Shown here piece by piece: positions 22,398 to 26,978 of a DNA stretch of 64,000 nt. The stretch is taken from contig NZ_AUAR01000010.1 in the NCBI RefSeq assembly GCF_000428825.1, positions 1 to 64,000 on the forward strand. Reading direction: 5' to 3'. Position numbers and translations under genes: made by a program. Each line of letters starts with the position of its first letter. Positions within the stretch are counted from its first letter, which is position 1. This DNA is from Desulfomicrobium escambiense DSM 10707 (lineage in GTDB: Bacteria; Desulfobacterota; Desulfovibrionia; Desulfovibrionales; Desulfomicrobiaceae). A model generated the notes under the pieces. That model worked only from the letters and a program-made list of their open reading frames with translations. It was not told the DNA's origin and searched no databases.

Positions 22398-23546
22398 ATG
22401 ACCCTTCGCCTTCTCTGCCTTCTGGCCGCCCTGGTTCTCGGGTTCGCGGCCCCTGTCCGTGCCGAGTCCCTGCCGTCCGTCCCGGAGTCCCTGTACCCCG
22501 AACTCGAATATCTCCTGACCGTGCCCCAGGGATCGGCCGACCTCGCCGCCGACAAGCTGAACGGCATCGTGTCGTTTGTGGCTTCCACCCCGCAGGACAC
22601 GAGCATGGCCATGCGGGACCGCGACAAGGCCTCGGGCGCCTTTCACGCCTTCACCCTGCGCGGGAGTCTGGCGCGGGTCGTGGACTACGCCTACAATCCT
22701 GACATCCCGGTCTACGTGACCATGCCGTCCTCGGTGCGGGAGCAGGAGTGGCTCGACCCGGCCACCCGTGACGCCCTGAGGGGCCTGTCGCGGGCCGTAG
22801 AGCAGGGCGGCTCTTTCATGTTGCGCGGTCGCGAGCGCGAGATCATCACGCCCGACGCCAACACGGGCGGCTACTACGCCTACAAGCAGGACCGGGCCCT
22901 GAGCGTCTTTCCCGGCCCGAAGGGGCCGATCATCGTCTCCGTGGCCTGCCAGAACGAGCCCTCGGACATCGGCCGCAAGGGCTTCGTGGTGGGGCCCGAC
23001 TCCGACTGGAACTACCTCTACTCGGCCGAGACCGGGCTGACCAAGACGGGCCTGGGTTGGGTCGATTCCTACATGTACAAGGCCTACTCGGTCCTCGTGC
23101 TCGTCTCCGACACCGAAGCCGGCGTCGTGCGCGCCGGATCCTTCAAATGGCTGAACGCGGGTTGGGCCAAGGTCAACATGGTCAAGCAAATGCACATCGT
23201 CAATGGCATCAAGCGCTTCGCCGCGGATTTCAAGGCCGTTCTCGAATCCCCCCGTCTGCCGCAGGCCGGGGAACTGGCCGCCATGTACAGGGAACTGCAG
23301 GGGGATAGCCCCGAGAGCCTGCGCGCCCAGGTCGCCCCCTACCTCGACGCCATCGCCACCGGCGGGTCGTCCTCGTCCCTGGCGGGGCCCTTCAAGCAGT
23401 TGCTGGCCTCGGGCGAGTACCTGCGGGACATGAGCCGGGAGGAGATGGTCAAGATCGTGCTCAAGGAATTCCTCAAACAGCGCCTCGGCCGGCAGACCCT
23501 GATCCAGGTCGCCCGGGCCGGGACGCCCGGGACGACGCACCCCTGA
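22398..23546 (+). CDS. Secreted protein of unknown function
   Basis: A 382-residue protein with a clear signal peptide (LLCLLAALVLGFAAPVRAE, cleavage after RAE or VRA). No catalytic motif or known domain is recognised. The mature part is mixed alpha/beta with GGYYAYKQDRALSVFPGP, VSVACQNEPSDIGRKGF and WNYLYSAETGLTKTGLGW; the C-terminal third is helical and charged. It is probably periplasmic. The gene diverges from the Mla-type operon and precedes, on the same strand, a recombinase-tail-like gene and the amidoligase pair, but gaps of 150 and 180 bases make a shared operon uncertain. Confidence 0.75.
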   Translation: MTLRLLCLLAALVLGFAAPVRAESLPSVPESLYPELEYLLTVPQGSADLAADKLNGIVSFVASTPQDTSMAMRDRDKASGAFHAFTLRGSLARVVDYAYNPDIPVYVTMPSSVREQEWLDPATRDALRGLSRAVEQGGSFMLRGREREIITPDANTGGYYAYKQDRALSVFPGPKGPIIVSVACQNEPSDIGRKGFVVGPDSDWNYLYSAETGLTKTGLGWVDSYMYKAYSVLVLVSDTEAGVVRAGSFKWLNAGWAKVNMVKQMHIVNGIKRFAADFKAVLESPRLPQAGELAAMYRELQGDSPESLRAQVAPYLDAIATGGSSSSLAGPFKQLLASGEYLRDMSREEMVKIVLKEFLKQRLGRQTLIQVARAGTPGTTHP

Positions 23547-23696
23547 CCTGCGGTCCGTCCTGACAACCCCGCCTCGGGCGGCCCGGAGCTCCATGGCTGA
23601 CAGCGCGCGTTTCGAGTCAAATCGGGATCCGGTTTCCCTCGGGCCGGCGTGCACCGTACGTCCTCGCTCGGGCCCTGCGCCGAAGGGGAGGCGGGC

Positions 23697-24134
23697 GTGA
23701 CCCGGCCCGGCGACGAGGCGCGCCAGCGGGCCCGCGGCATTCGCGACGAGGCACTTTCCCGGCTTGCCCAGCGGGACCGGGACTCCATCGACCATCTGCG
23801 GGCCGAACTGGCCGAAATGAAGGCCATGTTGCACAGGCAGGCCGAGCAGCTCGCAACTCTGACGACCCTGGTCTCCTCCCTTTCCGTCACGGCCTCCGGA
23901 CCCGAAGACGCTCCCCCCGCATCCACCCCCCGCCCCTTGTCCGGCGCCAAGCGCGCCGCCCTCGAACGCATCCGCGACCTGCGCCGCCAGGATCTGTCTT
24001 TCGCGCGCATCTGCGAGATCTTCCAGGCGGAGCAAATCCCGACGCTGTCAGGGGACGGGCAGTGGTCCAAGGGCACCTTGTGGAACCTCTGGCGCAACCA
24101 CGGCCACCAGCTCGGCACGGCCGACAGGGACTGA
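23697..24134 (+). CDS. Small coiled-coil protein with recombinase-like C-terminal helix-turn-helix
   Basis: A 145-residue protein starting at a GTG with GGGGAGG five bases upstream. Residues 20-65 are a coiled coil (IDHLRAELAEMKAMLHRQAEQ). Residues 85-140 (LERIRDLRRQDLSFARICEIF, then EQIPTLSGDGQWSKGTLWNLW) match the DNA-binding tail of large serine recombinases, in which a helix pair is followed by IPT...W....V..IL.N. The catalytic domain is absent. It is likely a DNA-binding protein derived from, or similar to, a recombinase tail; its target is unknown. Confidence 0.65.
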   Translation: MTRPGDEARQRARGIRDEALSRLAQRDRDSIDHLRAELAEMKAMLHRQAEQLATLTTLVSSLSVTASGPEDAPPASTPRPLSGAKRAALERIRDLRRQDLSFARICEIFQAEQIPTLSGDGQWSKGTLWNLWRNHGHQLGTADRD

Positions 24135-24315
24135 CTCCGCCGTCGCGTCTGCCGCAACCCATCCTCAGCATTCCCTGACCCGCACCGCCAAGGGGCTGGA
24201 TAACCAGGCCGATTCGTGGGATGGGATATTCACGTGTTCGACGCGTCAGGACAACGTCCCGGCCTGCGCGCGGCGGGTTTCTGGCATCGGGCGGGATTGA
24301 TGGCGAGAGACGTTC

Positions 24316-25308
24316 ATGAAGCAGTCTGCAGGTTTTTTCCGCATGCCGCCGCAGCTCGGTACGAGCGACGGCAGTTCCCGGCGCGTGGGGTTTGAGCTGG
24401 AGTTTTCCGGCATTTTCCTGGATGACGCCGTCGCCGCCCTGGAGAAGTCCATGGGCGGGCGCGTCACGTCGAGGACGGCGGCGGAAGTGCGTTTTCAGTC
24501 CGAAGGCCTCGGCGTGTTCCAGGTCGAACTGGACTGGTCCTTCCTGAAGGTCAAGGCCGCCCGGACCGGCGACGAAGCGGACTGGGGCGGCGAATGGCTC
24601 GAACTCCTCAGCCATGCCGCGGCCCTTTTCGTGCCCGTCGAGGTGGTCTGCCCTCCGGTTCCGCTCGCGGACATGGCCATGCTGGAGCCTCTGCTGCACG
24701 CATTGCGTGAGGCCGGCGCCGTCGGCACCGAGGAGTCCCTCCTGGCGGCCTACGGGCTGCACATCAACGTCGAGATGCCGCAGCTGGACGCCCCGACGCT
24801 GTATGCCTACCTGAAAGCCTTCTCCCTGCTGCAGTGGTGGCTGGTCGAGGCCCACGACGTGGACATCGCACGGCGGGTCAGCCCCTTCGTCGACCTCTAC
24901 CCCGAAGCGTACATCCGGCTGCTGTGCACGGAGCCGGAGCCGACCATGGACAGGATTTTCGCCGATTATCTCGAACACAACCCCAGCCGCAACCGCGCCC
25001 TGGACATGCTGCCCCTGCTGGCGCACATTGATGAAAAGCGCGTGCGCCGGAGCGTCAGCGACATGAAGGTCCGGGCCCGTCCGGCCCTCCATTACCGCCT
25101 GCCCGATTGTCTCATCGACCGCCCCGAGTGGTCTCTGTCCGATGCCTGGAACATCTGGTGCGTCGTGGAGCGCCTGGCTGGCAGCGGGGATGACCTCCGT
25201 GCGCTGTCCGATGCCTTCCTGGCCGCCGAAAGGCCCATCCTGGGCGTGAGCCGCGGCGACTGGGTCGAGTTCGTTGACCGATGGCTGGCAGACCGCGCGT
25301 TGGCGTGA
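24316..25308 (+). CDS. Amidoligase-family enzyme (glutamine-synthetase-like fold, PF12224 type)
   Basis: A 330-residue protein with the amidoligase_2 pattern: RRVGFELEFSGI (metal-binding Glu27 and Glu29), VELDWSFLK, YGLHINVEMP (His149, Asn151), an SPFVDLYPEAYIRL stretch near 190-202, and a basic KVRARPALHYRLPD segment. These enzymes use ATP to join a carboxylate to an amine, as in glutamine synthetase or glutamate-cysteine ligase. The product cannot be deduced. It overlaps the next gene, a class I glutamine-amidotransferase-like hydrolase, by 28 bases. Amidoligase/amidotransferase gene pairs have been reported by comparative genomics as makers of unknown peptides or amides. Confidence 0.85.
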   Translation: MKQSAGFFRMPPQLGTSDGSSRRVGFELEFSGIFLDDAVAALEKSMGGRVTSRTAAEVRFQSEGLGVFQVELDWSFLKVKAARTGDEADWGGEWLELLSHAAALFVPVEVVCPPVPLADMAMLEPLLHALREAGAVGTEESLLAAYGLHINVEMPQLDAPTLYAYLKAFSLLQWWLVEAHDVDIARRVSPFVDLYPEAYIRLLCTEPEPTMDRIFADYLEHNPSRNRALDMLPLLAHIDEKRVRRSVSDMKVRARPALHYRLPDCLIDRPEWSLSDAWNIWCVVERLAGSGDDLRALSDAFLAAERPILGVSRGDWVEFVDRWLADRALA

Positions 25309-25952
25309 CCGGCAACGGCCGGCTCTGGTCGCCGGCCTGGTGGTGCACCCGGCTGGCCCTGCGGCTGGCCGGGGCCGCGCCCGTACGCATCAGCGTGCGC
25401 CACAGGGCTAGCGTGCGCAGCATGGACGCTCTCGTCATCGGCGGCGGCAACGACATCAGCCCCGAGCACTTCGGCGGCGACCTGTCGGGCAAGGTCAAGG
25501 CCGACCCCAAGCGCGACCTGCTGGAGATCGAGTGCATCCGCTGGGCCCTGTCGCACGGGGTGCCGCTTTTGGGTATCTGCCGCGGGGCGCAGCTCATCAA
25601 CGTGGTCCTGGGCGGCACGCTGCACCAGGACATCCGTCACCTGCGCAAGCGTACCTCCAACCGGCCGGGCCTCCTGCCGACCAAGCGGGTGCGCCTCGAC
25701 CCCGACTCCCTGGTGGCAGGCGTCTGCGGCACAGACAAACTCAGGGTCAACAGCCTGCATCACCAGGCCGTGCACAGGCCCGGCACGGGACTGACCGTGG
25801 TGGGGTGGGACCGCGACGAGATCGTGCAGGCGGTGGAGTGCGTCGGGGAGCGTCCGGCCATCGGCGTGCAGTGGCACCCGGAGTACATGCTCTACCTCCC
25901 GTCGCAGTTCGCGCTCTTCCGCTGGCTGGTGCGCAGCGCAAAAAAGGCATGA
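25281..25952 (+). CDS. Class I glutamine amidotransferase-like hydrolase (peptidase C26 type)
   Basis: A 223-residue protein. LLGICRGAQLINVVLGG carries the nucleophile Cys100, and GVQWHPEYML carries His199 and Glu201, completing the triad. DALVIGGGNDISPEHF gives the oxyanion-side loop of the C26 (gamma-glutamyl hydrolase/PuuD) group. It would hydrolyse a gamma-glutamyl amide or release ammonia. The ATG lies inside the end of the amidoligase gene, so translation is coupled and the two proteins probably act on the same compound. A terminator hairpin overlaps its stop codon. Confidence 0.9.
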   Translation: MAGRPRVGVTGNGRLWSPAWWCTRLALRLAGAAPVRISVRHRASVRSMDALVIGGGNDISPEHFGGDLSGKVKADPKRDLLEIECIRWALSHGVPLLGICRGAQLINVVLGGTLHQDIRHLRKRTSNRPGLLPTKRVRLDPDSLVAGVCGTDKLRVNSLHHQAVHRPGTGLTVVGWDRDEIVQAVECVGERPAIGVQWHPEYMLYLPSQFALFRWLVRSAKKA

Positions 25953-25978
25953 CTCCCTGACCGGGAATCATGCCTTCG
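25945..25978 (+). terminator. Terminator of the amidoligase operon
   Basis: Perfect nine-base stem AAGGCATGA / TCATGCCTT with a 14-base loop that includes the stop codon of the hydrolase gene. A-run upstream and T/C-rich tail are short, so it may work in both directions for the convergent membrane-protein gene. Confidence 0.7.
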
Positions 25979-26012
25979 CTGTCGGTGCGGCGCGGGCCCG
26001 CTTTATTTTCGG

Positions 26013-26978
26013 CTACATGACCAGGTGCAGGACCCTGGGCATGAAGGTCGGCACGTCCCAGCCGGGGACGTAGCGGTTCAGGGTCTCGATGATGGCGACA
26101 GCCAGCAGGCCCGCGTGCAGCATGGTGGCCAGCGCGATGACGATCATGCTGCCCTTGAGGCGCATGGGATTCTCGCTGACGCAGACCAGGAGGGACAGGG
26201 CCATGGCCAGGACCAGGCAGGCCGCCGAAGCCGCTCCGGCGTAGAAGATCTGGGGCAGGTGCAGGTTGAAGACGCCCTTCAGGCTCAGGTACATCCAGAC
26301 CGCGATCATCAGAGTGACCAGCCCCAGGGCGATGTGCCATTTGCACAGGAAGGGCGGGGCGAAACGGTAGTAGTCGCGGCCCCAGTCGTCGGCGTTGCGG
26401 CGCAGCAGCAGGTAGACGAGTCCTCCGGCGGCGGTCAGGCACAGGGCCATGGGCAGCCACAGGGCCGCCAGGGGCCACACGGACGAGCCCCATGGGGGAA
26501 GAAAGGCCGGGTCGTCCAGGGGCAGGCCCCGGAAATAGAGCAGGGTCAGCAGGACGAGGCCCCAGTATCCGCATTTGACGGCCACATTGCCGACGCAGCC
26601 GAGCAGGACATGCACGGTCCGGCGTTCCTTGGCCGTCTTCCAACCCAGGTCGTAGGCCACCAGGGCCAGGGTCCCGAAAAAGGGCAGGGCCAGGGTCACG
26701 GCCAGGAGCATCTGGTTGGCGAGGGCGAATTCGGACTGCCAGAATGGGCGCACCATGAGCAGGGCCCACCCGGCCAGGATCGCGACCCAGAAAAGGGCGT
26801 GGCCGCGCACGCCGAGCCGTGAAACCTGCCGGGCCACGCGGGCCGGGAAGGGTTTGCCGGAAATCAGTCCGATCAGTTCGCTGACCAGGGAGATGGCCGG
26901 CGCCCCCCAGAACAGGGCCGCCAGCAGGAGCAGAAGGGGGAGAAGGGCGAACGCCCACTGGGGTACGGAAAGCGCCAT
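26013..26978 (-). CDS. Polytopic membrane protein of unknown function
   Basis: A 321-residue protein with eight or nine membrane helices, starting with WAFALLPLLLLLAALFWG. No family is recognised. Notable non-membrane features are HALFW, MVRPFWQSEF, CKWHIALG and CVSENPMRLKG; scattered histidines in or near helices (HALF, TVHVLLG, KWHIAL, TMLHAG) could bind heme or metal, which is speculation. It stands alone, convergent with the amidoligase pair. Related proteins occur in sulfate reducers without an assigned role as far as I can tell. Confidence 0.7.
   Translation of the reverse strand: MALSVPQWAFALLPLLLLLAALFWGAPAISLVSELIGLISGKPFPARVARQVSRLGVRGHALFWVAILAGWALLMVRPFWQSEFALANQMLLAVTLALPFFGTLALVAYDLGWKTAKERRTVHVLLGCVGNVAVKCGYWGLVLLTLLYFRGLPLDDPAFLPPWGSSVWPLAALWLPMALCLTAAGGLVYLLLRRNADDWGRDYYRFAPPFLCKWHIALGLVTLMIAVWMYLSLKGVFNLHLPQIFYAGAASAACLVLAMALSLLVCVSENPMRLKGSMIVIALATMLHAGLLAVAIIETLNRYVPGWDVPTFMPRVLHLVM

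Follow-up and report, generated by a model that had tools for sequence, protein, structure and literature searches.

What do the two overlapping genes at positions 24316 to 25952 of our window do, and do they form a new system? The window is the whole stretch of DNA that we analyzed, 64,000 nucleotides from Desulfomicrobium escambiense DSM 10707 (RefSeq assembly GCF_000428825.1, contig NZ_AUAR01000010.1, positions 1 to 64,000 of the forward strand). A preliminary description, made from the sequence alone, read the pair as an amidoligase and an amidotransferase-like hydrolase and considered it to be its best candidate for an undescribed system. The term is too strong: the family has been described, and the pairing had reportedly been predicted before. 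Iyer et al. 2009 (Mol Biosyst) are said to have predicted amidoligase-GAT neighborhoods in proteobacteria; by that account, the ligase family there is Amidoligase_2, as in the window pair, and the partner is of the same class. The window pair is a further copy of a predicted and, as far as we found, uncharacterized enzyme module. The features of the locus are:

24316 to 25308, plus strand: predicted ATP-dependent amide ligase of the Amidoligase_2 family, 330 amino acids, with a predicted glutamine-synthetase fold (from the open reading frame, PF12224, and an AF2 model); "the ligase" below
25281 to 25952, plus strand: predicted C26-type gamma-glutamyl hydrolase, class-I GAT-like, 223 amino acids, with the triad Cys100-His199-Glu201 (from the open reading frame and PF07722); "the GAT" below
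25281 to 25308, plus strand: 28-nt coding overlap of the ligase and GAT genes (from the coordinates of the open reading frames), with translational coupling likely
25944 to 25976, no strand assigned: strong hairpin (z = -4.87) spanning the stop codon of the GAT gene; the minus strand holds the T-run, which makes it chiefly a candidate terminator of the convergent gene at 26013 to 26978 (minus strand)

Both open reading frames and their 28-base overlap have the coordinates that were first given for them, 24316–25308 (+) and 25281–25952 (+). The two genes overlap in 122 of 155 loci, and because the overlap is exactly 28 nt in 26 of the 77 loci from named relatives, the start of the GAT gene is credible. 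The terminator that was described after the pair is doubtful. The T-run of the hairpin at 25944–25976 lies on the minus strand, so the hairpin is a better fit for the convergent gene than for the pair. Also, a consensus terminator scan of 23400–26100 had no terminator-like site at the end of the pair; its one site is inside the ligase gene (at 24396), and 1.2 are expected by chance.

The ligase belongs to the Amidoligase_2 family, as had been proposed (PF12224, 210.8 bits, E = 3.8e-62, versus a curated Pfam cut-off of 22). No model in NCBIfam matches it. Glu27, Glu29, and His149 had been singled out as its motifs. Across 95 aligned ligases, including the window's, both glutamates hold up (Glu in all 92 ligases with a residue there), but His149 is not invariant: 78 of the 95 have histidine and 17 have glutamine.

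By sequence, no solved chain matches the ligase profile, even up to E = 10. An AF2 model that was built from an alignment of 64 sequences has a mean pLDDT of 89.8. Foldseek alone found nothing for this model at E ≤ 0.001; the best hit was YbdK (0.039), followed by glutamate-cysteine ligase and glutamine synthetase. When VIA-align was run over the top 1,000 Foldseek hits, the best alignment was to a glutamine synthetase (5dm3_D; Z = 12.1, rmsd 3.6, 214 aligned). All 50 of the matches listed are titled glutamine synthetase or glutamine-synthetase-type ligase, in a list that leaves other folds possible. The ligase is thus predicted to have the glutamine-synthetase fold. The preliminary description held that a model lacking the amidoligase fold would speak against its reading; since the model aligns with glutamine-synthetase-type entries, it speaks for that fold instead.

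The GAT matches Peptidase_C26 (PF07722; 159.5 bits, E = 1.4e-46, Pfam cut-off 20.5) and, more weakly, GATase (PF00117; 56.4 bits, E = 4.2e-15). Cys100, His199, and Glu201 are kept in 155 of 155 aligned GATs, which agrees with the initial view of a C26-type hydrolase with a complete triad. The best NCBIfam model is PuuD, at 68.3 bits, short of the equivalog cut-off of 266. The model for gamma-glutamyl-CDP-amidate hydrolase scores 47.3 bits, and models for glutamine amidotransferases score under 40. The solved relatives are Lin1909 (6e-26), 7d4r (1e-25; also 7d53 and 7d50), and PuuD (4.5e-17), as compared to 4.5e-4 for TrpG.

Among 61 relatives, 12 have PF12224, and so do 5 of the 16 genus genomes, 17 of 297 genomes of the phylum, and 20 of 369 Gammaproteobacteria (phage-like copies are counted). 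The window-type ligase (profile A4) turned up in 22 of the 398 genomes searched in Microbulbifer's phylum and in 49 of the 194 in its order. A scan of named genomes gave 580 relatives of the ligase. The best 80 of the 580 are our "named loci"; they are the closest relatives rather than a random sample. Within these best 80, the nearest relative of the ligase is from a Desulfomicrobium MAG (90%), followed by gammaproteobacteria (Thiorhodococcus, 62%). Our counts are for 168 loci, which include two pairs with identical ligases (L031/L051 and L117/L138) and two ligases that are fragments (L034, which lies at the end of a contig, and L242, which is in two frames). Loci that do not match the profile of the window-type ligase were excluded (L041, L043, L044, L048, L049, and L050 of one 20; L133 and L152 of another 20).

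The preliminary description had suggested comparing genomes to see whether the pair stays adjacent, and it does. By open reading frames, a GAT gene comes after the ligase gene on the same strand in 77 of the 80 named loci (best 80 of 580). Adjacency on the same strand also holds in the other sets: 17 of 18 loci of a gammaproteobacterial draw, 13 of 14 loci from Desulfobacterota, 15 of 18 loci of a phylum draw, and 31 of 37 loci of an order draw. Of the three named loci without a called GAT, L063 and L081 stop at the end of a contig, and L119 has none. Searches with tblastn add one GAT each to the named set (L063, a fragment), the phylum set (L200), and the order set (L240). The mirror-tree correlation between the ligase and the GAT is 0.84 across 56 loci (0 of 1,000 shuffles were as high), to which shared species history contributes. 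The ligase is also on plasmids, in 11 records that are all alphaproteobacterial by the names listed; we opened seven of these regions, and in three of them, a GAT is annotated directly downstream. The plasmid pDSHI02 of Dinoroseobacter shibae has the two-gene version. The ligase-GAT pair is a widespread module.

A few loci have other neighbors. In L103, L104, L108, L114, and L129, the ligase is immediately preceded, on its own strand, by a gene for an AI-2E-type transporter (identified with Pfam in one of them), and by clustering, seven loci of the order draw have a similar gene. In L047 (5110–7031), a GCS2-type ligase adjoins a gene of the N-formylglutamate-amidohydrolase type, a few kb from the pair.

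Does a third gene recur beside the pair, as the preliminary description suggested checking? When we clustered the open reading frames around the 80 named loci (best 80 of 580), one gene recurred after the GAT. It encodes a membrane protein of about 143 amino acids, with a VTT domain (PF09335) in four of the four that we tested with Pfam. In two comparisons, a VTT from the operons had 42% and 43% identity with YqaA of E. coli. By its VTT domain and its similarity to YqaA, the third gene belongs to the COG1238 (YqaA) branch of the DedA superfamily; the assignment of YqaA to COG1238 is our reading of PMC10127716.

A COG1238/YqaA-type VTT gene is beside the ligase in 59 of the 168 loci, 56 with a GAT and 3 without; the window pair does not have one. 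By set, it is there in 32 of the 80 named loci (best 80 of 580), in 6 of 18 loci of the gammaproteobacterial draw (with two more about 2.2 kb away), and in 20 of 37 loci of the order draw by script, or 21 if we count L209, where the VTT directly follows the GAT. Two of the five locus sets have none (0 of 14 Desulfobacterota loci and 0 of 18 loci of the phylum draw). In 50 of the 56 loci with both genes, the VTT start lies no more than 20 nt from the GAT stop codon. In L229, L236, and L239, the VTT directly follows the ligase, and tblastn found no GAT in these 11-kb loci. By script, 10 of the 168 loci have neither a GAT nor a VTT; at least two of these (L063 and L240) hold a GAT that is cut by the end of a contig. 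In L242 (G1287:C4:254066-255008), the ligase gene is split over two frames, and the GAT and the VTT still adjoin it.

The state of the VTT changes 23 times on the ligase tree. Evolutionary distances for the VTT are correlated with those for the ligase (r = 0.56) and the GAT (r = 0.59); 0 of 1,000 shuffles were as high, and shared species history contributes to both values. Across genomes of one order, the ligase is present in 17 of 20 genomes that have an operon-type VTT at 200 bits or above and in 25 of 33 at 180 bits or above, as compared to 49 of 194 overall, with kinship ignored. (This comparison joins two draws of 194 genomes, which we took to be the same genomes, and uses a VTT profile that was built from the operon copies.) A COG1238-type match is present somewhere (E = 1e-10) in 32 of 49 genomes, chiefly those without an adjacent VTT. 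The recurrence of a VTT gene with the ligase-GAT pair in other bacteria is a new observation here. We found no published link between amidoligases and DedA/VTT proteins, and no published ligase-VTT loci, in the literature searched, which did not extend to Iyer et al. 2009.

In E. coli K-12, yqaA adjoins gshA (glutamate-cysteine ligase) on the same strand, which resembles the loci with a VTT and a ligase. Unlike the ligase-GAT-VTT loci, there is no GAT alongside, and GshA is from a ligase family other than PF12224. We considered a general linkage of yqaA and gshA and rejected it: outside E. coli, no gshA turned up near 27 of the COG1238-type matches from the 49 genomes.

An extra segment of about 30–40 residues is found in 16 of the 155 GATs (L035–L047, L130, L139, L140, L148, L149, L237, and L238). 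Each of the 14 segments that we scored contains a hydrophobic stretch, with a best 15-residue hydropathy of 0.97 to 2.61. We wondered if the segment stands in for the VTT gene: at first, 0 of 14 of these loci had a VTT, and with more loci, it was 2 of 16 (p = 0.05). We rejected this idea. In an AF2 model of the GAT from L130, the segment has low confidence (pLDDT about 55–74 in residues 71–120), and we therefore give it no structural reading.

In the window, there is no VTT near the pair within a 26-kb stretch, and the convergent gene at 26013–26978 comes next. There is a single COG1238-type match in the window genome, at C1:206362 on a different contig; it has the motif VFPVPSE at the place of PFYSE (or a close variant) in the operon copies. 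This genome also has another PF12224 amidoligase (G000:C9:69598-70278; L001 and L041), which is beside a phage-tail-like open reading frame, in a prophage-like setting, with no GAT or VTT in the surrounding 20 kb.

The preliminary description had also raised the involvement of a secreted protein (22398) and a DNA-binding-like gene (23697) upstream of the pair. These were rejected as partners because both are also present at loci of the genus without the pair. The secreted gene is found in 15 of the 16 genomes of the genus, and both genes, along with the convergent gene (itself in 13 of 16 genomes), are present in each of the eight genus loci that we fetched for this site, all of them lacking the pair there. 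Conversely, genes of the 22398 and 23697 types are beside the ligase in just one of the 80 named loci (best 80 of 580), which is the nearest relative. The stretch from 24134 to 26013, together with L248–L255, looks like a variable slot between core genes of the genus. The slot may be empty, or it may be filled by the amidoligase pair, by several sensor genes, or by one gene of the PAS/GGDEF type. The slot has only a few bases in L253 and L254. In L248–L252, it has an open reading frame of about 570–670 codons (Pfam was run on that of L248 and gave PAS/GGDEF), and in L255, it has several open reading frames, two of which encode PAS proteins by Pfam. The pair occupies the slot in the window and in genome G014; in G003, it is at the end of a contig, just before the convergent gene. 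Two other genomes of the genus, G002 and G013, have a different pair, about 40% identical, elsewhere. In a quick tree of 112 ligases, the window copy is within a branch of 66 rows (support 98), 55 of which are gammaproteobacterial. The window pair was probably gained by transfer from a gammaproteobacterium, a direction that we infer.

What would the pair do? Ligases with the glutamine-synthetase fold spend ATP on activating a carboxylate, and gamma-glutamyl amides are cleaved by C26 enzymes. Given these activities, the likeliest role of the pair is to form and break an amide of the gamma-glutamyl type. In our proposal, the ligase would couple an ATP-activated carboxylate to an amine, with the gamma-carboxylate of glutamate as the likeliest acid partner; the C26-type cysteine hydrolase would cut the gamma-glutamyl-type amide again. 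Since a gene for a VTT membrane protein accompanies the module in many relatives, we suggest, with less confidence, that the amine might be part of a membrane lipid or of a lipid-linked compound. The COG1238/YqaA-type VTT protein could then carry this lipid, with or without its cap, across the inner membrane. The window organism would have a two-gene version of the module, in a variable slot between core genes. The make-and-trim pair of the preliminary description remains the most economical reading, given the predicted fold of the ligase, PuuD among the solved relatives of the GAT, and the conserved adjacency. Taken together, we give a make-and-break module for a gamma-glutamyl-type amide, perhaps with a membrane-lipid amine, about an even chance of being right; its reaction, specificity, and lipid target are all read from the families, the modeled fold, and gene neighborhoods. 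The lipid reading rests on the VTT gene, which is absent beside the window pair. The full form of the idea, in which a membrane lipid would have its amine head group reversibly capped with a gamma-glutamyl or similar amide and the COG1238 VTT would flip the capped or uncapped lipid, is tentative, and on balance we doubt it.

We considered three other explanations. The GAT might be a genuine glutaminase and supply the ligase with ammonia, in which case the pair would make a primary amide on a carboxylate; MurT/GatD, acting on lipid II, is the comparison. A synthetase that is tightly coupled to a class-I GAT is a classical layout, and GATase (PF00117, 4.2e-15) does match the GAT. But C26 outscores GATase by 159.5 to 56.4 bits, and PuuD (68.3) and gamma-glutamyl-CDP-amidate hydrolase (47.3) outscore the glutamine amidotransferase models (under 40). 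None of these score comparisons is decisive, and we consider an ammonia donor to be unlikely. Or the amine might be small and soluble: as in the gamma-glutamylputrescine pathway of PuuA and PuuD, a gamma-glutamate cap would be added and later removed, for amine catabolism, protection, or an osmolyte. PuuA/PuuD have the same enzyme logic as the window pair, namely a ligase with the glutamine-synthetase fold and a C26 gamma-glutamyl hydrolase, and PuuD is among the solved relatives of the GAT. Also, in five of six loci from one genus of the same order (L035–L039), an alpha-amylase-type gene comes after the pair on the same strand; it was GlgX-like in the one locus checked with Pfam, where the next gene is also of the alpha-amylase type. 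The window pair differs from PuuA/PuuD in that the ligase is in PF12224 and matches no NCBIfam model, and the GAT is far below the equivalog cut-off for PuuD (68.3 versus 266). Against a soluble route, besides the GAT and the VTT, neighbors with a fixed place are found in few loci (the AI-2E transporter upstream, in 5; this is from the 45 largest clusters around the best 80 of 580 loci). This soluble route seems doubtful to us as well.

The third explanation is a modification of the cell surface or of peptidoglycan, for instance for phage exclusion. Phages such as phiEco32, LUZ24, RIO-1, and others carry cassettes with an amidoligase and a glutamine amidotransferase, as in the window pair, and PMC5498523 and PMC10580990 describe phage amidoligases with GAT, gamma-glutamylcyclotransferase, and ATP-grasp genes that are predicted to alter the cell wall. 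The window GAT matches the PHROG "glutamine amidotransferase" (8.7e-22) and 39 phage records, and the second PF12224 gene of the window genome is in a prophage-like setting. Against this, the window ligase has no match at E = 1e-5 in 50,697 phage records (both are PF12224 at the profile level), nor in viral contigs by a pattern scan. The partners in the cassettes include ATP-grasp genes, and in two of the papers on them, the GATs are of another class (class II, PF13522) than the window's partner (PF07722/PF00117); since 39 phage records match the window GAT, class II need not define phage cassettes. With the ligase absent from the phage records and the viral contigs, and only the GAT having its 39 weak matches, we rejected a phage origin of the pair. 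PADLOC had no match for the three proteins searched (the ligase, the GAT, and one VTT), and we rejected a defense system on that ground. A role in surface modification is, in our view, quite improbable.

For the gamma-glutamyl-type module that we prefer, the three-gene version in other bacteria is a more interesting lead than the window pair. According to PMC10127716, the function of the COG1238 DedA proteins is little known, and their cargo may be lipids that are uncharged or carry a positive charge. A conserved operon that joins a COG1238 protein with a predicted amide ligase and a predicted hydrolase gives this question of cargo two enzymes whose chemistry can be tested, and in non-pathogenic strains, since Microbulbifer and Thiorhodococcus have the three-gene operon. 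If the proposed capping of a membrane lipid is true, it would be a new cycle of lipid modification, and the COG1238 branch of the DedA superfamily would have its first named cargo.
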